NCBI GenBank assembly: GCA_002706335.1
Contig: PAKZ01000028.1
Coordinates: 1-64,000 of the forward strand
Reading direction: 5' to 3'
Length of the DNA stretch: 64,000 nucleotides
Source of the DNA: Ahrensia sp.
Lineage (GTDB): Bacteria > Pseudomonadota > Alphaproteobacteria > Rhizobiales > Rhizobiaceae
Part shown: positions 51,368 through 63,947 of the stretch, piece by piece
Position numbering within the stretch: the first letter of the stretch is position 1
Layout of the letters: every line of letters begins with the position of its first letter
The notes under the pieces: generated by a model
Told to the model about the DNA's origin: nothing
Databases searched by the model: none
The model's input: the letters and a program-made list of their open reading frames with translations, nothing else
Position numbers and translations under genes: made by a program

Positions 51368-52156
51368 ATGATCCTGTCTCACGATTACCGGTTCATTTTT
51401 GTAAAACCCAAGAAAGTCGCCGGCACGAGTCTGGAAATTCTGCTCTCCCAACTTTGCGGTGCGCACGACATCATCACACCAATCGCAAAGATAGACGAGG
51501 CCACGAGATCCCGTCTCGGCTTTCCGGGGCCCCAGAACTATCGGAAACGGTTGCGAGAAGCCAGTTTCGACGACTGGCGCAGGCTGATCCTGCGACAAAA
51601 AACGCCGTTGCGGTTCTACAACCACATCCCGGCGACTGAGATCAAAAAGAGCGTCGGCGATGAAATCTGGAACTCATATCTGACGATCTCGATCGTCCGA
51701 AATCCGTTCGATTATGCGATCAGTCGGTACTACTGGAAACGCAAATCCGGCAATGAGCAGGATTTCACCAGCTTCCTGCGTGCGAACCCGCAATGCCTCA
51801 CTGAAAACCGGCGCATCACCGATATCGACGGACGATGCGAGATCGATTTCATGGTTCGCTACGAAAACTTGCAGGCCGATTTGACCCAGCTTTCGGAGCG
51901 GCTCGGCCTGGACAAGAACCTCGGCACGGAAAGCTCTATGGTCACAGCCAAGTCCGGAGTTCGACCAGTCTCCGCAACCATGTCCCGGATGTACAGCAGC
52001 CATCCGGAGGCATTGGATATCGTCAGGGACCGCTGCCGTCATGATATCGAACGATACGGTTATGACCTGCCGTCCATTGACGTCGAAACGCTGGCGGTCA
52101 CTCCCGGCCCGAACCCGGCTCCGGATTCCCCGAATACCGTGGGCCGGAAAGCATGA
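51368..52156 (+). CDS. sulfotransferase-family protein
   Basis: A 262-residue protein with a sulfotransferase fold. The PAPS 5'-phosphosulfate loop reads FVKPKKVAGTSLEILL (8-25), and the 3'-phosphate motif is TISIVRNPFDYAISRYYWKR (about 105-125), as in carbohydrate sulfotransferases. It would transfer sulfate from PAPS to a hydroxyl group. GAGACGAA precedes the ATG. Its stop overlaps the next gene's start (ATGA), so these are one operon. Codon use is somewhat less GC-rich than in the housekeeping genes nearby, suggesting horizontal transfer. Acceptor unknown. Confidence 0.8.
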   Translation: MILSHDYRFIFVKPKKVAGTSLEILLSQLCGAHDIITPIAKIDEATRSRLGFPGPQNYRKRLREASFDDWRRLILRQKTPLRFYNHIPATEIKKSVGDEIWNSYLTISIVRNPFDYAISRYYWKRKSGNEQDFTSFLRANPQCLTENRRITDIDGRCEIDFMVRYENLQADLTQLSERLGLDKNLGTESSMVTAKSGVRPVSATMSRMYSSHPEALDIVRDRCRHDIERYGYDLPSIDVETLAVTPGPNPAPDSPNTVGRKA

Positions 52157-53667
52157 CGATCCTTATTTGCTACGGGTGCCGGAAATCCGGCAGTACCCTT
52201 GCGTATGAATTGACTTCGGAGCTGCTCAGGCGCACAGGCCACCCGCAAGATCGCTTGCCGGGCGATATTCTCGATCTGCGGCACACGGTCAATTTCGTAA
52301 GCCGCGAGACCGGCCTGTCGATGGACCTCTTGAAACGGATCGAAGCGGTTACGCCGCCGAACCGGATAATAGCGCTCAAAACACACCTCTCGCCTCCGCC
52401 GGACGTTCTCGATTACATAAAAGAGGGTCACGCCTTCGCCCAGGCGATCTTCCGCGATCCGCGCGACAACGTCCTGTCACTCCGTGACGCCGGCAGGAAA
52501 GCTAGGAAACGCGGCGAGCAATCCTTTCGCATGATACACGGCGTGCTTGATGCAATCGCTTCATGCGAAGAGGGCCTCGCGGATTTCGGAGTATGGGCCG
52601 GAATACCCCAGACGCTTGTTGCCGATTACGACGAGGTCGCATTCAGCAGCCGCCAGTTTCTAGCGCGGGTTGCCGATCAGATCGGCCTTGAACTTGAGTC
52701 CGATCAGTTGCTCCTCAACATCGAGCAAAAGGTGAAGAATGAGCGGTTCACGCAACACAACAAGGGAATCGCCGCTCGCCACCGGGACGAGCTGAGCGTT
52801 CGGCAATATGTGGCGCTCACCCGCCGCTTCGCGGGGTTCCTGACCGCCCATTTGCCACACAGACTCGACGCATTCGATCTGGCGACCTTGGCCGACGTTG
52901 ACGGAACGCAAGAAGCGAGCCGGTCGGACCGCGACTTGGAAGCCATCTTCCCTCCAAATTTCGAACCCGACGGCAACTCCCGGACGAGAGTCAAGAAAAC
53001 CTTTGTGGTCCTCGGATGTCCTCGCGGAGGAACGAGCCTGATTGCAGGCGCGCTCTATCATTGTGGAATCTCGATGGGCAACTTCCGCACCGGCCAGTAC
53101 GAGGATCCGGATTTCAAACTTCGCCCCGAGCGGGCCAGAAGTGCGAGGCGCCTGCTTCCTCCGAGGATACGGGTCCGGAACAGCATACACGAGTACTGGG
53201 GTTGGAAGGTGCCAAATGCGATTTATTACATCGGCCGCATCCGGAAGCATCTGGTGAACCCGCAATACCTCTTCGTCTATCGCGATCCCGAAGCAGTCGC
53301 CCGGTCATCAGCGCGCCATGACGGGATCAATTGGGACGCGAACAGAGAAAGATTGCTCCGCGACGCCAAACGGCACAGGGAAAAGCTCCAGGCATTTGAG
53401 AGGCTCTTGGGGCACAACGGCAACGTGCATGTCTTTCGCCACGAAGACATCCATGGCGATCCCGAGGCGTTCATCGACCGCCTTTTCGAAATAGTCTCTC
53501 CGCTGAAACCGTCTCGCGCGGATATCCGCCGCTTTATCAACCGGGAGGGTGGTTACAGAGCACCGGAAACGCTACCATTCGTCGATTATCAGGCTGCGCC
53601 CCCACCACGCCTTCTTGACCGCGCCCGCAGCAGACTCCGTGCCATCCGCAAGTCACGATGGCGTTGA
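52153..53667 (+). CDS. two-domain sulfotransferase-like protein
   Basis: A 504-residue protein with two sulfotransferase-like halves. N-terminal half: ICYGCRKSGSTLAYELTSEL (PAPS loop) and AIFRDPRDNVLSLRDAG. C-terminal half (from ~275): FVVLGCPRGGTSLIAGALYH and LFVYRDPEAVARSSARHDG. Both have the loop and the R-D-P motif, so both might bind PAPS. The start overlaps the previous stop by four bases; the stop overlaps the glycosyltransferase start by ten. No signal peptide or transmembrane helix is visible, so it acts in the cytoplasm. Confidence 0.78.
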   Translation: MTILICYGCRKSGSTLAYELTSELLRRTGHPQDRLPGDILDLRHTVNFVSRETGLSMDLLKRIEAVTPPNRIIALKTHLSPPPDVLDYIKEGHAFAQAIFRDPRDNVLSLRDAGRKARKRGEQSFRMIHGVLDAIASCEEGLADFGVWAGIPQTLVADYDEVAFSSRQFLARVADQIGLELESDQLLLNIEQKVKNERFTQHNKGIAARHRDELSVRQYVALTRRFAGFLTAHLPHRLDAFDLATLADVDGTQEASRSDRDLEAIFPPNFEPDGNSRTRVKKTFVVLGCPRGGTSLIAGALYHCGISMGNFRTGQYEDPDFKLRPERARSARRLLPPRIRVRNSIHEYWGWKVPNAIYYIGRIRKHLVNPQYLFVYRDPEAVARSSARHDGINWDANRERLLRDAKRHREKLQAFERLLGHNGNVHVFRHEDIHGDPEAFIDRLFEIVSPLKPSRADIRRFINREGGYRAPETLPFVDYQAAPPPRLLDRARSRLRAIRKSRWR

Positions 53668-55091
53668 TACCGAACAGTTCCGCCGGCCAGGAGCCGGCTC
53701 CGACAAAGCCCTCCCCAGGAGTTCGACGCTTGCCCGAAATATTTTTTGACGTCAGCGAACTATTCTACAGTTCGAAGCTCAAATACTATGGCATCGCGAA
53801 GGTTGTGAGTGAGACGGCCTATGAGATAAGCCTTGTAAGGCCGGATGTGAGGTTCGTGATCTTCTCGCCCGCCCATCGAAGGTTCTTCGAAGTGTCGCCG
53901 CTGATCGGTGAGGAATCGGAAAACAAGGTCTTCGACCCGAACATACCTGAAAAAGCCGTCCCGATCTGGATGCGGCATACTTACCATGAAAGTCATTTGG
54001 CGCGGGATGCGGGCATCCTGTTCGCCAAGCCGGTCATAAAGGCCATAAATCTCTCGCGGTGGCGAAACGCGGCGGGTTTCGTGCGGGAGGTCGACCTGAA
54101 TGGAGGTGTCCTAATCGCAATGGGTCGCCCCAAACTGATGTTCGACTACATTCAGGATCTCAGGCGGGAGCGCAATTCCGTTCGCTTCTTTCCGCTCCTG
54201 CACGACCTTATCCCGCTACACGATTTCAATGCGAAAAAGACCTACTCGATGCCGCGCAATTTCCTGCACGACAATATCGGTGTCATTGAATTCGCATCAG
54301 GATTGCTGGCAAATTCGCACTTCACCTGCGGCGATCTGCAGGATTTTTCCAGGCGGGGCATCCTGCCGCCGCTGCCTCCGATCACCGCCGTGCCGCTTGT
54401 TCACGAGCACCGCGATATCGGGGACAAGCCAAGTGTCGAACCGCCGAGCGAGCCATATCTGCTCTGCGTGGGCGGGCTTCTGGGCAGGAAGAACCTCGAA
54501 GCAGTTTTCAACGCCATGCGTCTTCGCGTCGAGCAGGGAAAGCCGGTTCCAGCCCTCGTACTCGCCGGCGCACACCGAGACAGCATCGCGAAGGCGCTGG
54601 GGCGAACAGATTATCGGGCAATTGCAGACAAGGTCGTTTTCATTGCCAATCCCGGCCAGACGGATCTCGCGCGCTTGTATCGCGAAGCACTGGCGCTTGT
54701 GATTCCCAGCCGCATGGAAGGCTGGGGCCTCCCCGCCGGAGAGGCTTTTTGGCACGGCACGCCGGTTATCTCGTCGTCAGCGCCCGCGCTCATGGAAGTA
54801 TGCGGCGATCTCGGCATGTATTTCGATCCCGACGATCCCGGCAATCTGGCTGGCCACATAGACCGGTTGATGCATGACCAGGACTATCGGGCCGAGCTGG
54901 TATCGAAGATAAAGGCTGCCCGGAACACCCTGCGCACCTGGAACAACTTCGCTCGCGAGACGCTGGACGCTGTCGAACGCATGCTGGCGTCCGAGCGGTC
55001 GGAATACAACGCACCGGCGACGATTAACGCGACAAGGCGAAGCCGCTCGGACAAGCCGGAATCCCCGGCCGACAGTTCCGGTTCTGCATAG
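53658..55091 (+). CDS. GT4-family glycosyltransferase
   Basis: A 477-residue glycosyltransferase of the GT-B fold, family 4. The C-terminal nucleotide-sugar domain has LLCVGGLLGRKNLEAVFNAM and GWGLPAGEAFWHGTPVISSS, with the E-x7-E pattern typical of GT4. The N-terminal part is IFFDVSELFYSSKLKYYGIA, like enzymes making capsule, O-antigen or exopolysaccharide. It starts ten bases before the end of the two-domain sulfotransferase, so the trio is translationally coupled. The donor sugar is not deducible. The C-terminal ~35 residues are polar and may be non-essential. Confidence 0.85.
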   Translation: MALIPNSSAGQEPAPTKPSPGVRRLPEIFFDVSELFYSSKLKYYGIAKVVSETAYEISLVRPDVRFVIFSPAHRRFFEVSPLIGEESENKVFDPNIPEKAVPIWMRHTYHESHLARDAGILFAKPVIKAINLSRWRNAAGFVREVDLNGGVLIAMGRPKLMFDYIQDLRRERNSVRFFPLLHDLIPLHDFNAKKTYSMPRNFLHDNIGVIEFASGLLANSHFTCGDLQDFSRRGILPPLPPITAVPLVHEHRDIGDKPSVEPPSEPYLLCVGGLLGRKNLEAVFNAMRLRVEQGKPVPALVLAGAHRDSIAKALGRTDYRAIADKVVFIANPGQTDLARLYREALALVIPSRMEGWGLPAGEAFWHGTPVISSSAPALMEVCGDLGMYFDPDDPGNLAGHIDRLMHDQDYRAELVSKIKAARNTLRTWNNFARETLDAVERMLASERSEYNAPATINATRRSRSDKPESPADSSGSA

Positions 55092-55176: not shown

Positions 55177-55251
55177 GGGCGATTAGCTCAGCGGGAGAGC
55201 ACTGCCTTCACACGGCAGGGGTCACTGGTTCAATCCCAGTATCGCCCACCA
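55177..55251 (+). tRNA. tRNA-Val (anticodon CAC)
   Basis: A 75-base cloverleaf: acceptor GGGCGAT/ATCGCCC, D arm GCTC...GAGC, anticodon arm CTGCC-TTCACAC-GGCAG with CAC as the anticodon (GTG valine codons), TPsiC arm ACTGG-TTCAATC-CCAGT, discriminator A and an encoded CCA. All stems are perfect. Preceded by a clear promoter. Confidence 0.96.
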
Positions 55252-55449
55252 TCAACATTCCGAGTTCTTTCAATCCCGCCTCTTTCATCCGAGATGCTTG
55301 TGCGTGCTTTGCTCTGTTAACGGGAGCCGAAAGTTCGCGCCCCGTCAAATTCCCTTTGTTCATCTTCCCCAACGGCAGGAAACCTGCTGTTATCCCTAGT
55401 TTATTTGAGTTGCTGCGGCGCAATACGATTTAACGAAGTAGCGATGGTT

Positions 55450-55477
55450 CCCCTGTATTGTCTCGATGATACAGGGG
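55450..55477 (+). promoter_or_regulatory. hairpin sequestering the Shine-Dalgarno of the Amt fusion
   Basis: CCCCTGTAT (55450-55458) and ATACAGGGG (55469-55477) form a perfect 9-bp stem around a 10-base loop. The 3' arm contains AGGGG, the likely Shine-Dalgarno of ATG 55487, eight bases before the start. The loop carries another in-frame ATG (55466). After the hairpin comes ACTTTTC, so an attenuator is also possible. Effect inferred. Confidence 0.5.
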
Positions 55478-55486
55478 ACTTTTCTC

Positions 55487-58400
55487 ATGCCGCTGCTATT
55501 TCGAGCGCTGACTGCAATTCTTATCGTGTTGGCCGTCGAAGGGCCTGCCAACGCGGCGGAACTCTCCATCGCCGACATTACGGCGCGGCTTGATTCCACC
55601 TGGATCCTCGTCGCGGCCGGTCTCGTCCTTCTGATGCAGATCGGCTTCCTGCTGCTCGAAGCAGGCTCTGTGCGGACAAAGAACGCGGTCAACGTAGCGC
55701 AGAAAAACCTGCTCGACTTCGCTTTTGCCGTACTCGCCTTCTGCACCGTTGGCTTCATGATCGGTTTCGCGCCGTCGTCAGCATCCTTGCCGGTCGGCTT
55801 CGATACGAACCTCCTGTTTCTCAACAACATTACTACGCATGACGCTATTTTCTTCATTTTTCAGGTGATGTTCTGCGGCACGGCCGCGACCATCATTTCC
55901 GGCGCCGTCGCGGAACGCATGAAGTTGAGCGCTTATGTCGTTTTGAGCGTCCTGACCGCCGCAATCATCTACCCCGTTTTCGTCCAATGGGCCTGGGGCG
56001 CAGTCCGCGGCGACAACGCCGGCGCCTGGCTCGCCAATATGGGGTTTGTCGACTTCGCCGGCTCCACGGTTGTGCACGGAACCGGCGGATGGATTGCGCT
56101 TGCAGCCTGCCTCATACTCAAACCTCGCGATGGACGGTTTGACAAAGACGGACGGCCGGTGCGCTTCACCGGCCATAGTCCGGTCCTGACGGCTGCCGGA
56201 ACGCTTCTGCTATTCGTCGGCTGGATCGGCTTCAATGGCGGCTCAACCCTCTCTGCAAGGCCCGAGGTCGCTTTCATCGTTCTTCACACGGTCCTCGCGG
56301 GCGCCGCCGGCGGCGGTGTCGCATATGCATGGTTCCATTTCCGCGAGGGCTCAGCCTATCCGGAACGCGCCACCAACGGCATGATTGGCGGCCTCGTCGC
56401 GATCACGGCCGGCTGCCATCTCGTCGATCCCTGGGCAGCCATCGTGATTGGAACTTGCGGCGGTTTGATCACCACTTGGGCCAACACGATCCTTGAAACG
56501 CGCTTCCGCGTCGACGACGCGGTCGGTGCCGTCGGAGCCCATGCATTTGCCGGTGTTTTCGGAACCCTCGCGCTTGCGTTTATGGCGCCCGCATCCGTTC
56601 TGCCGGCCGGTTCTCATTTCGCCCAGTTCGAGATCCAGTTGACCGGCGTCGCGGTAAACTTCGCATGGGCCTTCGGCACCGGCTTAGTGATGGTGATGGT
56701 CCTCAACAAACTGACCGGTGTGCGCGTCGACCGAGATACCGAAATTCGCGGTCTCAATATCGGCGAACACGCCGCGTTGATCGGCACCGCCCACGTCGAA
56801 GAGGCCATGCGCTCGCTGATCAGGGGCGATGCCGACCTATCGGTCAGACTGGAATCTCGACAGGGAGACGATGCCGAGGAGCTCGCCGTCGCTTTCAACG
56901 ATCTTATGGACAATCTCGAAAAGACCGAGGGGCAGCGCTGGCGCGATACGGAACTGCGCAGAACGGCTGAGGAGGCCAATCGCCTCGCCGCCTTTGCCGA
57001 CGCAACCTTCGAGGCGATCGTACTTGCCAGCGAATACCGCGTAATCGACGCCAATTCCGCTGCGGAAAAACTGTTCGGCTTCCCCGCCCACGAATTACGA
57101 GGCCGAACGGTCAAGTCGCTTTTTCCGGCCAACGATTGGCCGGGGGCAGTGTCCCATCTGAAGGAAGACGCCGAACGGCCAGCGGAATCGGGCATCCAGC
57201 CATCGGCTGGCGATCGCGTACCGGTGGAATTCCGGTGCCGAAGCATCGAGTATTCCGGCAACAAGACGCAGGTTTTGGCATTCGCCGACCTGAGGGAACG
57301 CAAGAAGGCGGAAGCGCGGATCTATCATCTCGCCATGCACGACCCGCTGACTGACTTGCCGAACCGATCCCACTTCAATCAGCGCCTGCGCGAACTCCTG
57401 GACCACCTGTCGCCGGAATCCGCGTCCACCGCGCTGCTCCTGATCGATCTCGACCAATTCAAAAACATCAATGACCTGCACGGCCATCCGTCCGGCGATG
57501 CGGTGATCACGGCGGTCGCCGAAAGGTTGCGCAGCGTCGCCGGTCCGGGCGATTGCGTCGCACGCCTCGGCGGCGATGAATTCGCCTTCGTTCAGGCAAG
57601 CATCGACTTCCCGAACCAGGCCGCCGATCTTGCACACCGTCTGCTTTACGCGATTTCCGAACCGGTGCTCTTGCCGACTGGCGACACGATCCGCCCCGGC
57701 GCCTCGATTGGCGTCGCCATCGCGCCCCGCGACGCAAGCGACGCGGAGACACTGTTCCAGCACTGCGACGTCAGTCTCTATGCGGCCAAGAACAACGGCC
57801 GCAACACCTACGCGGTCTACGAACCGGGCATGGGAGAGGAACTGCGCAACCGGCAGAAGCTGGAGGAAGACCTGAAAACAGCGGTCACAGAAGAACAGTT
57901 CGAACTGTATTTCCAGCCGCGCCTCGACGTCGCGTCCCGTTCGATCATCGGTTACGAGGCGCTTCTGCGTTGGGACCACCCGGTTACGGGCCGTATCTCG
58001 CCGGCGGAATTCATTCCGGTCGCCGAGCAATCGAACATCATCGTCAGCCTCGGTGAATGGGCGCTTCACAAGGCCTGCGAAACCGCGGTCGAACATCTGG
58101 GTGACGCACGTATCAGCGTCAATGTCAGCCCGCGCCAGTTCCGCGGCAAGGGTTTCGCAGATACGGTTCGGCGCGTTCTCGAGAACACCGGCCTGGAACC
58201 CTCTCGGCTCGAACTCGAAGTTACGGAAAGTCTGTTCATCGACAATGCGGACAAGGCGGTAGCCCTGTTGACCGAACTGAAATCGCTCGGCGTTCAGGTA
58301 GCGCTCGACGATTTCGGCTCCGGCTATTCGTCCTTGAGTTATGTGAACCGCTTTCCATTCGACACGATCAAGATCGACCAGTCCTTCATTCGCGAGATGA

Positions 58401-58726
58401 ACGAGGCATCGAACGCCCTCCATATCATCGACACCATCCTTCGGCTCTCGGCAGGTCTCGGCATATCGGTCGTCGCCGAGGGCGTCGAAACAGCGGAACA
58501 ACTGCAGCGCCTGGTGACCATGGGTTGCTCGGAAATCCAGGGTTTCCTGGTCGCCTACCCCCTGCCCGTGTCCAGCCTGGCGCGCGAGGTACCGCCCCAG
58601 GTGATGGAAATCCTCGAAAACGCCATGCAGCGCCAGGGACCCAGAGCCAACACGCTCGGTGAGATTGGTACGCTGATGCGCGATGCGGTCCGCGAAAAGC
58701 CGGCGCCGGGCAAGCAATCGGCCTAG
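55487..58726 (+). CDS. ammonium transporter fused to HAMP-PAS-GGDEF-EAL
   Basis: A 1,079-residue fusion. Signal peptide (1-25), Amt domain (~25-420), HAMP-like stretch (~430-485), PAS (~510-630), GGDEF (motif at ~694) and EAL (~823 onward). The Amt pore is intact by motif: FFIFQVMFCGTAATI, YPVFVQWAWG, the twin histidines in STVVHGTGG and GAHAFAGVFGT. The cyclase keeps RLGGDEFAF but no I-site; the phosphodiesterase keeps EALLRW, NVSPRQF, LDDFGSGYSSL and VAEGVET. It would couple external ammonium to c-di-GMP. ATG 55487 is preferred, with AGGGGA eight bases before. Alternatively, one catalytic domain may be silent. Confidence 0.92.
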   Translation: MPLLFRALTAILIVLAVEGPANAAELSIADITARLDSTWILVAAGLVLLMQIGFLLLEAGSVRTKNAVNVAQKNLLDFAFAVLAFCTVGFMIGFAPSSASLPVGFDTNLLFLNNITTHDAIFFIFQVMFCGTAATIISGAVAERMKLSAYVVLSVLTAAIIYPVFVQWAWGAVRGDNAGAWLANMGFVDFAGSTVVHGTGGWIALAACLILKPRDGRFDKDGRPVRFTGHSPVLTAAGTLLLFVGWIGFNGGSTLSARPEVAFIVLHTVLAGAAGGGVAYAWFHFREGSAYPERATNGMIGGLVAITAGCHLVDPWAAIVIGTCGGLITTWANTILETRFRVDDAVGAVGAHAFAGVFGTLALAFMAPASVLPAGSHFAQFEIQLTGVAVNFAWAFGTGLVMVMVLNKLTGVRVDRDTEIRGLNIGEHAALIGTAHVEEAMRSLIRGDADLSVRLESRQGDDAEELAVAFNDLMDNLEKTEGQRWRDTELRRTAEEANRLAAFADATFEAIVLASEYRVIDANSAAEKLFGFPAHELRGRTVKSLFPANDWPGAVSHLKEDAERPAESGIQPSAGDRVPVEFRCRSIEYSGNKTQVLAFADLRERKKAEARIYHLAMHDPLTDLPNRSHFNQRLRELLDHLSPESASTALLLIDLDQFKNINDLHGHPSGDAVITAVAERLRSVAGPGDCVARLGGDEFAFVQASIDFPNQAADLAHRLLYAISEPVLLPTGDTIRPGASIGVAIAPRDASDAETLFQHCDVSLYAAKNNGRNTYAVYEPGMGEELRNRQKLEEDLKTAVTEEQFELYFQPRLDVASRSIIGYEALLRWDHPVTGRISPAEFIPVAEQSNIIVSLGEWALHKACETAVEHLGDARISVNVSPRQFRGKGFADTVRRVLENTGLEPSRLELEVTESLFIDNADKAVALLTELKSLGVQVALDDFGSGYSSLSYVNRFPFDTIKIDQSFIREMNEASNALHIIDTILRLSAGLGISVVAEGVETAEQLQRLVTMGCSEIQGFLVAYPLPVSSLAREVPPQVMEILENAMQRQGPRANTLGEIGTLMRDAVREKPAPGKQSA

Positions 58727-58872: not shown

Positions 58873-59652
58873 ATGGCCGTCCGCAATAGCCTCGAACGTG
58901 TTATCGCGTTGCTGGACCTGTTCAGCGAAGAGCGCCTTGAATGGTCTCCGGACGAAATGATGGATGAGCTCGGCTATAGCCGTCCGACGCTCTATCGCTA
59001 TCTGAAAACGCTGAAGGAAGCCGGTTTCCTGACGTCGATGCCGTCAGGCGGGTTCACGCTCGGCCCGCGTGTTGTCGAGATGGATTTCCTGATGCGCCGA
59101 TCGGATAGGCTCGTCGCCCATGCACAGCCGCATCTGGAAATGATCACCGCAGCGGCCCCATGCACCGCGCTGGTCGTGCGCTGGTACGGGCACAAGCTGC
59201 TCTGCGTTGCTTCGGAGTGCTCATCGCCCGATGCGCAGACGAGCTATCCGCGCGGGCGCCCCATGCCGCTGGCCCGAGGAGCGGTCTCCCGCGCGATCAT
59301 CGCTTTTCTGCCACGCCGCAAGCTCCTGCCTATTGTAACCGCCAACCTGGATGGATTGCGGAATGCCGGGCTCGGCGAGGATCTGGACGCCGTGCTCGAC
59401 GTTTTTCGCGAGGTAAGGCGGGCCGGCTATGCCGTGGCTCATGGCGAAGTCACTCCCGGAGTCATCGGCGTCGCCGCACCGATCTTCGACGGCGGCAGCG
59501 GTCCGATTGCCGCCCTTGGCGTTACGACCCCGGCCAACGCGGCGGAACGTCTGGATGCAGCCAAAATGGGGGAGATCGTTTCCCGATCCGCGGCTGAAAT
59601 CAGCGGACACCTTCATCGCGACCGCATCTTCGGAACCGTCGACACGGAATGA
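58873..59652 (+). CDS. IclR-family transcriptional regulator
   Basis: A 259-residue IclR protein. The N-terminal winged helix (ERVIALLDLFSEERLEWSPD, DELGYSRPTLYRYLKTLKEA) is followed by the GAF-like effector domain with TALVVRWYGHKLLCVASE, PRGRPMPLARGAVSRAII and the C-terminal VGVAAPIF-type strand. It lies 39 bases before the amidohydrolase gene in the same direction and most likely controls this catabolic cluster. Confidence 0.9.
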   Translation: MAVRNSLERVIALLDLFSEERLEWSPDEMMDELGYSRPTLYRYLKTLKEAGFLTSMPSGGFTLGPRVVEMDFLMRRSDRLVAHAQPHLEMITAAAPCTALVVRWYGHKLLCVASECSSPDAQTSYPRGRPMPLARGAVSRAIIAFLPRRKLLPIVTANLDGLRNAGLGEDLDAVLDVFREVRRAGYAVAHGEVTPGVIGVAAPIFDGGSGPIAALGVTTPANAAERLDAAKMGEIVSRSAAEISGHLHRDRIFGTVDTE

Positions 59653-59691
59653 CGACCGGGAAATCAGAAACATTCACCCAGGGAGCACACC

Positions 59692-60714
59692 ATGAAAAAG
59701 ATCGACATCTTCAACCACATCTGGCCGAAGCCGTTTCACGACGCGCTGATCGATCTCATCGGATCGACCTCCGATATAACGCGCCGCTCCGAAGCCGTTC
59801 CGATGATGACCGATCTCGACCGTCGGTTCGAGGTAATGGATATGTTCGGGCCGGATTACTGCCAGGTGCTGTCACTGGCCTCGCCGCCGTTGGAACACGT
59901 AACGGATGCACCCCAGGCGCTGGAACTGTCGCGAATAGGCACGGACGCCATGGCGGACCTGTGCGCCAAATATCCCGAGCGCTTTCCGGCCTTTATCTCG
60001 ACCGCGGTCATGACCGATCCTGCCGGAGCCATCGCGGAAGCGCGCCGCGCCATCGAGGAAGCCGGCGCGGCCGGCATCCAGATCTTCACCAACGTCAAGG
60101 GCAAACCGCTCGACGCACCCGAATTCTCGGACTTCTTCGCCTATCTCGGCGAAGCCGGAAAGCCGGTCTGGATGCATCCGGCCCGCGGCGCGAACTTCCC
60201 CGACTATCTGTCGGAGACGCGCTCGGAATATGAAATCTGGTGGACCTTCGGATGGCCATACGAGACTTCGGCGGCGATGGCGCGCATGGTCTTCTCGGGC
60301 TTTTTCGACAAATATCCCGGCCTGAAGGTCATTACCCACCACGCCGGCGGCATGGTGCCGTTTTTCGAAGGGCGCGTCGGGCCCGGCTGGGACCAGATGG
60401 GGGCACGAACAACCGATCGCGATCTCGCCGCGGTGCGCAAGGCGCTGAAACGACCGCATCTCGACTATTTCAAGGATTTCTACGCGGACACAGCCTCCTT
60501 CGGCTCCCGCAAGGCGATTGAACACGCGATCGAGTTCTTCGGAGAGGACCATGTCCTGTTCGCCTCGGATGCGCCGTTCGACCCGGAAGCCGGACCAATG
60601 TACATCCGGGAAACGATCCGCATCATCGAGGAAATGGACATTTCCGAGGAACTGCGCCGCAAGATCTTCCAGGGCAATGCGGTCAAGCTGCTCGGTCTCG
60701 ATTTGAAGGGCTGA
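59692..60714 (+). CDS. ACMSD-type amidohydrolase
   Basis: A 340-residue amidohydrolase-2 family protein, most like 2-amino-3-carboxymuconate-6-semialdehyde decarboxylase relatives. Metal-site candidates are IDIFNHIWP (only one of the usual two His), VWMHPARG, VITHHAGGMVPFF and LFASDAPFDPEAG. The Phe at the first His position is unusual. It is 8 bases before the monooxygenase gene. A decarboxylase or hydrolase in aromatic degradation is likely, but the substrate is unknown. Confidence 0.83.
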   Translation: MKKIDIFNHIWPKPFHDALIDLIGSTSDITRRSEAVPMMTDLDRRFEVMDMFGPDYCQVLSLASPPLEHVTDAPQALELSRIGTDAMADLCAKYPERFPAFISTAVMTDPAGAIAEARRAIEEAGAAGIQIFTNVKGKPLDAPEFSDFFAYLGEAGKPVWMHPARGANFPDYLSETRSEYEIWWTFGWPYETSAAMARMVFSGFFDKYPGLKVITHHAGGMVPFFEGRVGPGWDQMGARTTDRDLAAVRKALKRPHLDYFKDFYADTASFGSRKAIEHAIEFFGEDHVLFASDAPFDPEAGPMYIRETIRIIEEMDISEELRRKIFQGNAVKLLGLDLKG

Positions 60715-60722
60715 CCGATCCG

Positions 60723-62309
60723 ATGAGCAAATTCGATACCGATGTCGTCATCGTTGGCGGCGGACCGGTCGGCATGGGCCTTGCGATCGAGCTCGGCCAG
60801 CGCGGCGTGCCGGTCACCGTCGTGGAGCGATACGAGAAGCCGCAACCCATCCCCAAGGGGCAGAACCTCAACCAGCGCACGATGGAGCATTTCCATTTCT
60901 GGAATGCGGAAAAGGAGTTGCGCGCCGCGCGCACCGTCCCGCCGGAATACGGTATCGGCGGCCTCACCGCCTACAGGACACTGCTTGGCGAATACCACTA
61001 CGACTGGCTGAAGCGCGAACTCGTCCGGCCCTATTATTTCACCGACAACGAGCGCCTGCCCCAATACGCCACCGAGGAAGTTCTGCGCGCGCGCGCAGCG
61101 CAGATCCCGGCGATTGATATCGTCTATGGCTGGTCCGGCGAAACGGTGCAGCAGGACTCTGACGGCGTCACCGTGACCATTGTCGAGCGGAATGGACCGG
61201 CGCGGCGAAGCCTGCGTGCGAAATATGCCGTAGGCTGCGATGGCAGTCATTCGGCAATTCGCGAGGCGGCGGGCATATCACAAACCCGGCGCGACCACGA
61301 CAAGCTGATGGTCCTGCTCGTCTTCCGATCGAAAAAACTTCACGACTACCTGAAGCGCTATCCCGGCAAATCCTTCTACAACGTCCTGCATCCCGAATTG
61401 AAAGGATACTGGCTGTTCTTCGGCCGCGTCGATCTCGGTTCGACATTCTTCTTCCACGCCCCAGTACCGGTGGGAACGACGAAAGACAATTTCGATTTCA
61501 CCGCCTATCTGCACCGCGCCGCAGGTGCGGAATTTCCGGTCGAATTCGAGCATATCGGCTTCTGGGACCTGCGCATCGCGGTCGCCGACGAATACCGCAA
61601 GGGACGGGTCTTCATTGCCGGCGACGCGGCCCACAGTCATCCGCCCTATGGCGGCTTCGGCGTGAACAACGGATTCGAGGACGCCCGGAACCTCGGCTGG
61701 AAACTTGCAGCCGCTTTGCAGGGCTGGGGCGGCGAGACGCTGCTCGACAGCTACGACCTCGAACGCCGTCCTGTCTTTGAGTCCACTGCATCCGACTTCA
61801 TCGAGAATTTCATCGAGGAAGACCGTGCCTTTCTCGAAACCCATGACCCCGAAAAGGACCGCGAAGCCTTCGAGACCGAATGGAAGAAACGCGAGCTGGG
61901 CGCGGCGGAAGTGCAGTCCTACGAACCGAACTACGAGGGCTCGCCTGTCGTCTACGGCCCAACCGGCGGCGTGAGTGGCGCGGTTGGAAAGCACGAATTC
62001 ACGGCCCGGCCGGGCCATCACCTCGCGCCACAGGACCTTTCTACGGGCAACAAACTCCATGAGGAATTCGGTGCTGGCTTCACGCTGATTGCCCTGGACC
62101 CGGAAGACAATGCGGTGACACGCTTCCGGACGGCCGCGGCCGAGCTCGGCGTTCCGCTTACCGTCATAGACGACAGCTATGCGGGCGGACGCGAGAGGCT
62201 GCAGGCACGGCTGATCCTCATACGTCCGGACCAGTTCGTCGCCTGGGCCGCAGAGACGCCCCCCGTGGACGCCAAGGCGGTACTCAAACGCGCCGCCGGT
62301 TTACCCTAG
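60723..62309 (+). CDS. FAD-dependent aromatic monooxygenase
   Basis: A 528-residue class A flavin monooxygenase (PheA/MhpA/TfdB type). It has the FAD motif VVIVGGGPVGMGLAIELG, the NADPH-sensing CDGSHSAIREAAG, and GRVFIAGDAAHSHPPYGG with GVNNGFEDARNLGWKL. The C-terminal ~110 residues form the thioredoxin-like tail of phenol-hydroxylase-type enzymes. It hydroxylates an aromatic ring with NAD(P)H and oxygen. Its stop overlaps the convergent SDR stop by four bases. Confidence 0.9.
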   Translation: MSKFDTDVVIVGGGPVGMGLAIELGQRGVPVTVVERYEKPQPIPKGQNLNQRTMEHFHFWNAEKELRAARTVPPEYGIGGLTAYRTLLGEYHYDWLKRELVRPYYFTDNERLPQYATEEVLRARAAQIPAIDIVYGWSGETVQQDSDGVTVTIVERNGPARRSLRAKYAVGCDGSHSAIREAAGISQTRRDHDKLMVLLVFRSKKLHDYLKRYPGKSFYNVLHPELKGYWLFFGRVDLGSTFFFHAPVPVGTTKDNFDFTAYLHRAAGAEFPVEFEHIGFWDLRIAVADEYRKGRVFIAGDAAHSHPPYGGFGVNNGFEDARNLGWKLAAALQGWGGETLLDSYDLERRPVFESTASDFIENFIEEDRAFLETHDPEKDREAFETEWKKRELGAAEVQSYEPNYEGSPVVYGPTGGVSGAVGKHEFTARPGHHLAPQDLSTGNKLHEEFGAGFTLIALDPEDNAVTRFRTAAAELGVPLTVIDDSYAGGRERLQARLILIRPDQFVAWAAETPPVDAKAVLKRAAGLP

Positions 62310-63079
62310 TGAGCGAGCCCGATTGCATCGGCGGCAAGCAGCGCAGTCGTCCCGCCATCGACGGGCATGTCGACACCCTTGATCCAGCTACTCTGGGGCG
62401 AGGCGAGGAAGGCGACGACCTCCGCCACCTCTTCCGGTCTTCCGGACCGTCGAGTGCGCGCCATCATCTTCGTGGCGCGGTCACCAAAGGCGATCACGAA
62501 ATCGTCGAGAATGCGGGTCTCGACCGCCGCCGGGCTGACCGTATTGATGCGGATATCGCGCGCGATAAGCGGCTCGACCTGGGATATCGACCAGACGATC
62601 ACGGCTTCCTTCGACAAATCGTAGGAACGCACGGGATCAATGCCCTGTTTCGCTATGAAGTCGGGCAAGGCATCGTTGCCCGGCAGGGCAAGCAGCGCCT
62701 TGACCTGCTCGATGTTCTCCCGCCAACGCGATCCTGCCTTCGAGGCAAGGCTGACGATGGACGCGCCGTCCTTCAGTTTCGGCAACATCGCCTTCGTCAT
62801 GGCGATAAGCCCGAACGTGTTCACGGCCAGAACCTTAGCCTCGAGACCAGGCCTCGGCGGCAGACCCGCGCAATTGACAAGCACATCGAACGGGCCGTCT
62901 GCCTTGGCGGCAGCGGCGGAGATGGCATCTGGTTCGGACATATCGACCTGAATCCAGCGATCGACATGTGCCGCCGGCTCCTCGATGTCGAAAGCGGTAA
63001 TGAAAGCGCCCTGCCCCTTCAACCTCGCCGCCGAGGCCGCACCTATTCCATGCGCCGCACCCGTCATCGCAACATGCAT
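62306..63079 (-). CDS. short-chain dehydrogenase/reductase
   Basis: A 257-residue classical SDR. TGAAHGIGAASAARL at the N terminus binds NAD(P)H, VNCAG is present, the catalytic Ser is in SIVSLASKAG, and YDLSKEAVIVW gives the Tyr/Lys pair. The long insert between Ser and Tyr resembles 3-alpha-hydroxysteroid-type SDRs. It is convergent with the monooxygenase gene and divergent from the exporter gene. Confidence 0.9.
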   Translation of the reverse strand: MHVAMTGAAHGIGAASAARLKGQGAFITAFDIEEPAAHVDRWIQVDMSEPDAISAAAAKADGPFDVLVNCAGLPPRPGLEAKVLAVNTFGLIAMTKAMLPKLKDGASIVSLASKAGSRWRENIEQVKALLALPGNDALPDFIAKQGIDPVRSYDLSKEAVIVWSISQVEPLIARDIRINTVSPAAVETRILDDFVIAFGDRATKMMARTRRSGRPEEVAEVVAFLASPQSSWIKGVDMPVDGGTTALLAADAIGLAH

Positions 63080-63203
63080 ATTGTATCCTCCCAGTGTTCA
63101 CCCCGACCCTCCGCCGGATTGATTATGCGGCAATCAGCAAGCACGCCCGGCCGGAATTTTCCAGCCCTTCGTAAAAAATCTCACTATTCGGGAATTTTGA
63201 CAA

Positions 63204-63947
63204 TTGAGCTTTGAACTCGAACTTTTCCTCGCGGCGCTCGCGCTGGCCGGGGGCGGCATACTCAAGGGGGCGATCGGGGCGGGCGCTCCGGTTCTCGCCA
63301 TCCCTGCCCTGTCACTGATCTTCGACGTTCGCTATGCCGTCGCCGTCCTCGTCATTCCCAACCTGATCACCAATCTCTCCCAGTGGTGGCAATACCGCGA
63401 CAAGATGCTGCCGCATGCCTTCACCGCATTGTTCGCCGCCGGCGGCGCACTCGGAGCATTGGCGGGCTCGTTCATGCTCGCTTTCATCCCTCCGGATATC
63501 CTGCTGACCGTCGTCGGCCTCGTGGTGGTCTTGTATATCGCTTTCCGGCTGATCCGCGCCGACTGGGTTCTCTCCTATTCGCGCGGATTGTTTCTTGCCG
63601 GGCCGGCCGGTTTTGCCGGCGGCTTACTGCAGGGCGCAGCCGGCCTTTCCGCTCCGGTTTCAATGACCTTCATGAGCGCTATGAAGCTGGAACGACCGAC
63701 ATTCATCGCGACGATCTCGGTTTTCTTCATGCTGATGTCAATCATTCAGGGGCCAACTCTGGCCGGCCTCGGGCTCCTCTCCTGGACAATCCTGCTCCAT
63801 GGCATGGCGGCGCTCGCCTTGATGCTTGGATTCATGCCGGTCGGCGCCTGGTTGGCGCGCCGTGTCCGTCGCGAAACGTTCGACAAGCTGATACTCGTTC
63901 TGCTTGGCGCGATCGCGGCGAAAATCCTGGTGACGGCGTTTCTCTAA
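63204..63947 (+). CDS. TauE/SafE (TSUP) family exporter
   Basis: A 247-residue membrane protein with about eight helices and the TSUP pattern GGILKGAIGAGAPVLAIPAL in the N-terminal half and GLLQGAAGLSAPVSMTFMSA in the second, which form the two repeats. TauE/SafE proteins export sulfite, sulfoacetate or related anions. The start is TTG 63204, with GGGAA before it. It lies 124 bases from the divergent SDR, and may belong to the same catabolic region. Confidence 0.87.
   Translation: MSFELELFLAALALAGGGILKGAIGAGAPVLAIPALSLIFDVRYAVAVLVIPNLITNLSQWWQYRDKMLPHAFTALFAAGGALGALAGSFMLAFIPPDILLTVVGLVVVLYIAFRLIRADWVLSYSRGLFLAGPAGFAGGLLQGAAGLSAPVSMTFMSAMKLERPTFIATISVFFMLMSIIQGPTLAGLGLLSWTILLHGMAALALMLGFMPVGAWLARRVRRETFDKLILVLLGAIAAKILVTAFL

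Follow-up and report, generated by a model that had tools for sequence, protein, structure and literature searches.

Does an ammonium transporter (Amt) domain that stands at the head of a cyclic di-GMP (c-di-GMP) enzyme carry ammonium or sense it? The question is raised by a gene in the window, by which we mean the whole stretch of 64,000 nucleotides analyzed here (positions 1 to 64,000 of contig PAKZ01000028.1, Ahrensia sp., assembly GCA_002706335.1). The gene occupies a single plus-strand frame at 55466-58726 and encodes a protein of 1086 amino acids with the order Amt, HAMP-like linker, PAS, GGDEF and EAL. An earlier note on this DNA had placed the gene at 55487-58726; the single frame held, and 55487 proved to be the second in-frame ATG, seven codons downstream of 55466. 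Judged from its sequence, the fusion protein is probably a membrane ammonium receptor that sets c-di-GMP, and not primarily a transporter. The evidence centers on a buried ammonium site described for Ks-Amt5, an Amt-histidine kinase protein of Kuenenia stuttgartiensis (PDB 6eu6), and on the pairing of one branch of Amt proteins with a range of signaling domains. The features of the gene are as follows.

55466-58726, plus strand: whole gene, Amt-HAMP-like-PAS-GGDEF-EAL (frame, Pfam, family conservation)
55601-56773, plus strand: Amt domain, residues 46-436 (Pfam Ammonium_transp, 338.8 bits; own-genome search, 342.3 bits)
55637-55717, plus strand: codons of sensor-site ligands Q58, E65, N81 and D84, matching Ks-Amt5 Q24, E31, N47 and D50 (alignment to 6eu6)
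55889-55900, plus strand: codons of sensor-site ligands T142 (Ks-Amt5 T109) and S145 (Ks-Amt5 T112)
56756-56758, plus strand: N431 of the Amt C-terminal motif, GLN (column comparison of fused and unfused Amts)
56774-56974, plus strand: HAMP-like linker and long signaling helix, residues 437-503 (sub-threshold Pfam match, predicted layout, WalK match)
57014-57301, plus strand: PAS domain, residues 517-612 (Pfam; fold match to PAS structures)
57332-57805, plus strand: GGDEF domain, residues 623-780, with an RLGGDEF motif and without the I-site arginine (Pfam, motif check)
57866-58561, plus strand: EAL domain, residues 801-1032, catalytic positions intact (Pfam; fold match to PA0575)

The Amt match (PF00909, residues 46-436) compares with a Pfam cut-off of 23.2 bits, and the matches to PAS_4 (residues 518-612, 30.1 bits), GGDEF (623-780, 141.9 bits) and EAL (801-1032, 239.8 bits) likewise exceeded their curated cut-offs. 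An AlphaFold2 model of the whole protein had a mean predicted local distance difference test score (pLDDT) of 82.4 and contained the Amt helices, two linker helices and the PAS, GGDEF and EAL domains. Structures were compared with Foldseek; the modeled Amt part superposed on Ks-Amt5 (6eu6) at 1.7 Å over 397 columns and on 8qj3, an entry for Sd-Amt1 of Shewanella denitrificans, at 1.8 Å over 398. A helix at residues 4-24, before the Amt domain, appeared signal-like by eye.

The buried ammonium site

In Ks-Amt5 a buried site holds two ammonium ions, with Q24, E31, N47, D50, T51, T109 and T112 as ligands, and this site is reported to be missing from uptake Amts, as given in the available portion of PMC5764959. 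When the fusion protein was aligned to the Ks-Amt5 chain, the seven ligand positions were occupied by Q58, E65, N81, D84, F85, T142 and S145. Six of the seven ligands are thus kept, five of them identical and one present as S145 for T112, with F85 replacing T51. A separate multiple alignment gave the same seven columns and recovered the published Ks-Amt5 residues correctly. The site of Sd-Amt1 reads QENDFTS, identical to that of the window protein.

Conservation was followed in a 29-row alignment, consisting of the window protein and 28 of its 34 other matches in the same bacterial family; L006, which lies at a contig end, and five matches without a locus were left out. Q58, E65, N81 and D84 were invariant in all 29 rows, as were the pore histidines H204 and H359. 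The earlier note had assigned sensing to the Amt pore. Intact pore histidines are also found in transporters, and because the pore residues are common to sensors and transporters they are no evidence of sensing; the separate buried site is the better evidence.

A five-residue core in fused Amts

The core Q-E-N-D-T was present in 128/128 complete fused Amts and in 2/62 complete unfused Amts. The rows include close relatives, and the non-redundant count, taken over representatives under 60% identity, gave the core in 40/40 fused and 2/15 unfused proteins. In a first labeling, 132 rows counted as fused (a tail of at least 140 residues, with the match reaching the query end), 127 of them carrying the signature and 5 being gapped at site columns. 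The recount was limited to rows without gaps at the seven site columns and no longer required the match to reach the query end, which gave 128 fused and 65 short-tail rows; 6 of 199 rows were gapped at the site. The signature occurred in 5 of the 65 short-tail rows, and setting aside L207, L096 and L239, which are broken or cut by a contig end, left the 2 of 62. The 128 fused rows include the window's own gene (L002) and L205, counted by frame length though its Amt match ends early, and also L104, which has a tail of 143 residues with no Pfam domain in it. Most of the fused rows were gathered by searching with the window protein or its alignment, and the unfused rows include 30 top-scoring hits of the Pfam profile and 20 picked by hand, so that neither set is a random sample. 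Eight Amts in long frames had been considered as fused counter-examples free of the signature; their frames are long upstream, their tails measure 2-17 residues, and they are not fused.

We also ranked 393 Amt columns by the difference between fused and unfused proteins in the frequency of the commonest fused residue. Site columns 142, 58 and 84 took ranks 3, 4 and 5, and columns 81, 145, 65 and 85 took ranks 35, 43, 55 and 203. Among 200000 random draws of seven columns, 12 ranked as low as all the ligand positions together; when the two site-bearing unfused rows were removed, the top three site columns ranked 2, 3 and 5, and 5 draws of 200000 did so. On these alignments, the seven ligands fall into three classes: three are strongly specific to sensors, another three also occur in some relatives, and the last has not been retained. 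Position 85, the counterpart of Ks-Amt5 T51, varies across the same fused set and serves as an internal control. The most fusion-specific of all 393 columns was N431, in the cytosolic C-terminal motif, which reads GLN in the window protein and GLD in the 8 unfused Amts compared.

At the site columns the nearest unfused Amts mostly read AENLxSS or HEIDFAS, whereas canonical Amts resemble TYxxxAV. One of the AENLxSS proteins is encoded in the same genome (L003, C31:176447-177604), as the second of its unfused Amts, shortly after a P-II gene; with AENLYSS it has part of the sensor site and would on this basis be an intermediate between the transporter and sensor types.

Fused Amts and their outputs

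In a tree of 67 Amt rows, chosen by hand from 191, all of the fused Amts lay on one side of a single branch (support 99/94), which was found in 98% of bootstrap trees. Outputs were labeled in the trees by our own probe search as histidine kinase, chemotaxis receptor (MCP) or GGDEF-EAL. Five changes were counted on the 67-row tree for each of these outputs, at least four on strongly supported branches for GGDEF-EAL, at least three for MCP and at least four for histidine kinase. Because at least four of the gains or losses of GGDEF-EAL fall on strongly supported branches, this pairing has been made or lost repeatedly. A FastTree analysis of all 191 rows gave a clade of 130 rows with support 1.0, made up of 129 fused Amts and one unfused Amt, L193; L206, which is unfused and has the site, fell outside it. 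The alphaproteobacterial GGDEF-EAL group comprised 69 rows with support of 0.33 in FastTree, and its 15 sampled rows grouped at 100/99 in the 67-row tree. L193 encodes an Amt of 433 amino acids with the full core, and frames near it resemble, by eye, a CRP-type regulator, a ferredoxin and a hybrid-cluster protein.

All 29 rows of the family alignment have GGDEF and EAL according to Pfam. In 20 other fused Amts Pfam identified MCP outputs in 17, a histidine kinase in one, a PAS-SpoIIE arrangement in one and no output in one. The Amt-MCP fusions (L090-L095, L097, L098, L100-L103, L105-L108 and L110) come from Alphaproteobacteria, Halalkalibacter and others; one of the 17 is incomplete at the site, the remaining 16 all have the sensor core, and by sequence these fusions are candidate ammonium chemoreceptors. 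At L113:5959-8487, in Roseofilum acuticapitatum, a sensor-type Amt is followed by PAS and a SpoIIE-type phosphatase domain.

That one Amt branch has been paired repeatedly with signaling outputs argues most strongly for a receptor role of the Amt part. We consider it likely that one old Amt branch is a general ammonium receptor, in which the buried site has been kept while outputs (chemotaxis receptor, histidine kinase, c-di-GMP enzymes, SpoIIE) were swapped repeatedly. If this is true, a transporter of 11 helices serves as a plug-in module for ligand binding that five residues make recognizable in sequence. The same five-residue signature might be used to tell ammonium sensors from transporters when only sequences are at hand, and from it a group of Amt-based chemoreceptors is predicted.

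The linker and the enzymatic domains

HAMP (PF00672) scored 18.3 bits in the fusion protein, under its curated cut-off of 25, and was matched at E≤0.1 in 12 of the 29 orthologues; among the 20 related fused Amts it exceeded the cut-off in five. The order Amt-HAMP-PAS-GGDEF-EAL with intact motifs, as originally described, therefore stands for Amt, PAS, GGDEF and EAL, with HAMP falling under the Pfam cut-off. Structure prediction of the Amt-HAMP junction, which the earlier note had proposed, placed two helices after the Amt domain (442-453 and 471-503) with a connector between them, at a low confidence for this part (block pLDDT about 51-76). Residues 437-614 modeled separately had a mean pLDDT of 72.6, low in the HAMP part, and their best PDB match was a WalK model over 181 columns, followed by PAS structures. 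The linker is HAMP-like on its predicted layout, and we use that name only, because the Pfam score is sub-threshold while the two-helix layout and the WalK match are predictions in its favor.

The positions of the GGDEF A-site and the EAL positions that we take to be catalytic are all present in the fusion protein. Those around D661-D678, K775 and the GGDEF motif were invariant in the 29 family rows, except that the first glycine of the motif (G702), intact in the window protein, is alanine in one. For EAL, E831, N886, E916, E918, E921, D948, D949, K969, E1005 and Q1025 were invariant in 29/29 rows, and A832 was kept in 28/29. From these residues, both catalytic sites look competent. The absence of the inhibitory I-site, as first noted, holds for the window protein, which has GPGD in place of the arginine motif, and does not extend to the family, 3 of 29 orthologues having RxxD; loss of the I-site as a family-defining trait was ruled out on this ground.

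The whole model matched the fold of the GGDEF-EAL tandem of PA0575 (PDB 5m3c) best, with 43% identity over 416 columns; we take PA0575 to be a phosphodiesterase. Directly downstream of the fusion gene, on the same strand, a VUPS sensor frame is found in 13 of 43 alphaproteobacterial orthologue loci (L039, L044, L045, L048, L049, L052, L054, L056, L058, L069, L070, L074 and L075, from Rhizobium, Neorhizobium and Allorhizobium records), though not in the window; the nine of these 13 frames that were scanned with Pfam all contained VUPS and GGDEF. Because of the PA0575 match and this downstream cyclase gene, we would guess that the fusion protein is somewhat likelier to be a net phosphodiesterase with a GTP-binding GGDEF domain than a net cyclase. 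The VUPS-GGDEF cyclase might possibly work against a fusion that mainly degrades c-di-GMP.

A model for ammonium sensing and its alternatives

If the fusion protein is a receptor, external NH4+ would bind at the buried Amt site of Q58, E65, N81, D84, T142 and S145 as in Ks-Amt5, and occupancy of the site would shift the cytosolic end of the Amt at its C-terminal motif. The HAMP-like coiled coil and PAS domain would relay this shift to the GGDEF-EAL pair, and net c-di-GMP would change in response, with a motile or sessile outcome as the presumed result. Bulk uptake of ammonium would fall to two P-II-amt pairs encoded at other loci of the genome. Two unfused amt genes lie on another contig, with P-II genes about 150 and 210 bases before them, and a split between uptake and sensing fits because each amt gene stands shortly after a P-II gene. 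The original proposal that an Amt ammonium sensor is tied to c-di-GMP thus retains its outline, supported by the binding residues, the similarity to Ks-Amt5 and Sd-Amt1 and the repeated pairing with outputs, and loses the route through the pore. The fusion would join in one chain a key nutrient signal, ammonium, and a key switch between motile and settled life, c-di-GMP.

Several observations weigh against such a receptor. The transport residues (the Phe gate F136 and F256, the twin His, W175 and S260) are all intact in the fusion protein, and of the residues that block the pore in Ks-Amt5 (F27, Y30 and F34) only the first is shared, as F61, the others being L64 and S68; for these reasons the protein may also transport ammonium. 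The site is only partly fusion-specific, E65, N81 and S145 having frequencies of 0.47-0.53 in the unfused representatives, and the unfused L193 and L206 both carry it. Having been collected mostly by similarity to the window protein, the fused set represents that protein's clade and includes close relatives. To these points are added the HAMP score under the Pfam cut-off and a mismatch in symmetry, a presumed Amt trimer having to drive enzymes that usually act as dimers.

The intact transport residues bear most directly on a true transceptor, in which the Amt both transports and signals and in which flux rather than site occupancy drives the c-di-GMP enzymes. Every transport residue is kept, the set FFWSHH (Phe gate, selectivity filter and twin His) is found in 123 of the 132 fused rows of the first labeling, with some of the other 9 gapped, and two of the three pore-blocking residues are not shared. 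We regard a transceptor as rather unlikely, however, given that six of seven sensor ligands are kept, that NH4+ translocation by Ks-Amt5, which has that site, is described as not efficient in the available portions of PMC5764959 and PMC8534201, and that uptake can be served by the unfused amt genes, both of which have a P-II gene as partner. Alternatively, the Amt might be a mere membrane anchor and the PAS domain the real sensor of the c-di-GMP enzyme. PAS is commonly the input module in PAS-GGDEF-EAL proteins, and the PAS profile matched all 29 orthologues scanned. An anchor, however, could dispense with the gate, the twin His and the ligands for the ion, of which six are retained; 18 of the 20 related fused Amts have an MCP or histidine kinase output and no Pfam PAS at E≤0.01; and the mean column identity is 57% in the HAMP-PAS stretch versus 63% in the whole protein, all of which makes this alternative improbable.

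Amt proteins are also partners of P-II, and docking of P-II (GlnK) on the Amt could be what regulates the enzyme, the input then being the nitrogen status inside the cell and not the ammonium outside it. The genome has three P-II genes, and according to the available portion of PMC7646526, P-II controls c-di-GMP in Azospirillum brasilense and GGDEF recurs among the targets of GlnZ. No P-II gene is adjacent to the fusion gene, however, all three lying on other contigs, which bears out the earlier statement that glnK is not adjacent. Furthermore, GLN replaces GLD in the C-terminal motif, which runs into the HAMP-like helices, so that the P-II docking face should be crowded. We therefore hold regulation by P-II docking to be very improbable, and an ammonium receptor remains our preferred interpretation of the fusion protein.

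Distribution and genomic surroundings

The protein search for this domain order and its taxonomic spread, proposed at the outset, found the architecture well beyond the window. Matches at E≤1e-150 occurred in 35 of 297 genomes of the family, 33 of them essentially full length, own genome included; the identity of the other family matches to the window protein was 41-77%. Full-length matches were found in at least 2 of 385 class genomes and at least 7 of 398 phylum genomes, own included, these being lower bounds in that scoring was limited to two candidates per genome. Among named genomes, the scan retained 80 loci, and in 59 (L096 in two frames) the match extended to residue 1032 or beyond. 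Such long matches came from Alphaproteobacteria (for example Roseibium, Rhizobium, Neorhizobium, Jiella, Stappia, Novosphingobium and Henriciella) and also from Marinomonas, Granulosicoccus and Desulfopila. An assembly error or a chance fusion was ruled out because the fusion is conserved across genera. Among the matches listed for plasmid records, of which at most 5000 were covered, none had one place covering 80% of the fusion protein. In Vibrio sp. THAF191d (NZ_CP046066.1:1774227-1776077) and two similar records, residues 45-786 were matched in two pieces, as an Amt-GGDEF protein would be.

The gene for tRNA-Val (anticodon cac) lies just upstream of the fusion gene at 55177-55251. Farther upstream, at 51368-55091, frames resemble by eye sulfotransferases and a glycosyltransferase, possibly genes for a surface polysaccharide. 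Downstream, at 58873-63947, frames resemble by eye an IclR regulator, an amidohydrolase, an FAD monooxygenase, a short-chain dehydrogenase and a TSUP-like permease, likely a catabolic cluster unconnected with the fusion gene. None of the 14 largest clusters listed for neighboring genes, drawn from the 43 orthologue loci and the window, contained a window gene; one of the 14 is formed by the downstream VUPS-GGDEF frames of the 13 loci named above. A nitrogen-type (sigma-54) promoter was considered for the fusion gene. No site matching at least 9 of 11 positions was found upstream of it, the best being 8 at 55373, a level reached 76 times in the window, and among the orthologues a site occurred in 1 of 43 upstream regions compared with 3.3% of random stretches. 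With upstream scores at background, this candidate was dropped.

Comparison with known systems

The architecture is already known, and the window protein is a further member. AmtE of Azoarcus olearius BH72, published in 2021, is described in the available text of PMC8467165 as a likely transceptor with an N-terminal Amt and GGDEF/EAL, its expression 36-fold up under N2 fixation. Many identical described homologues were, in the earlier note, to count against its reading, and with AmtE this objection applies in part. AmtE resembles the window protein in this pairing; it belongs to another lineage, and the likeness follows that description alone, not HAMP, PAS or the sensor site. The words 'ggdef', 'cyclic' and 'diguanylate' do not occur in the main text of a review on prokaryotic Amts from 2023, and PMC2907700, PMC12918730, PMC2330054, PMC6978683 and PMC1183210 contributed nothing on the fused architecture. 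No dedicated paper on Amt-chemoreceptors was found by title among the matches listed, and the available portions of PMC6978683, PMC1183210, PMC5764959, PMC8534201 and PMC2907700 do not mention them.

The PDB entries for Sd-Amt1 (8qj3, 8qj4 and 8qpf) name it a receptor and cover both its OFF and its ON state. Like the window protein, Sd-Amt1 is an Amt fused to GGDEF, with the same site; unlike it, no EAL was matched in its chain, and it lies elsewhere in the tree, beside Amt-GGDEF-EAL proteins that include that of Marinomonas. In the openly licensed literature no Sd-Amt1 paper was found by the PDB codes or, among the matches listed, by species name. PA0575 of Pseudomonas aeruginosa is a different protein, alike only over the GGDEF-EAL part of the model. 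AmtB-GlnK pairs share with the window protein the Amt fold, the Phe gate and the twin His, and differ from it in that the window protein has no adjacent P-II gene and has C-terminal output domains and sensor-site residues. Ks-Amt5 is an Amt receptor with five of seven ligands identical and serine in the window protein for its T112 (available portion of PMC5764959); it differs in its histidine kinase output, in having neither HAMP nor PAS, in T51 where the window protein has phenylalanine, and in two of the three pore-blocking residues. What is added here, and may already have been published, is the link of the Ks-Amt5 site to the whole branch of fused Amts.

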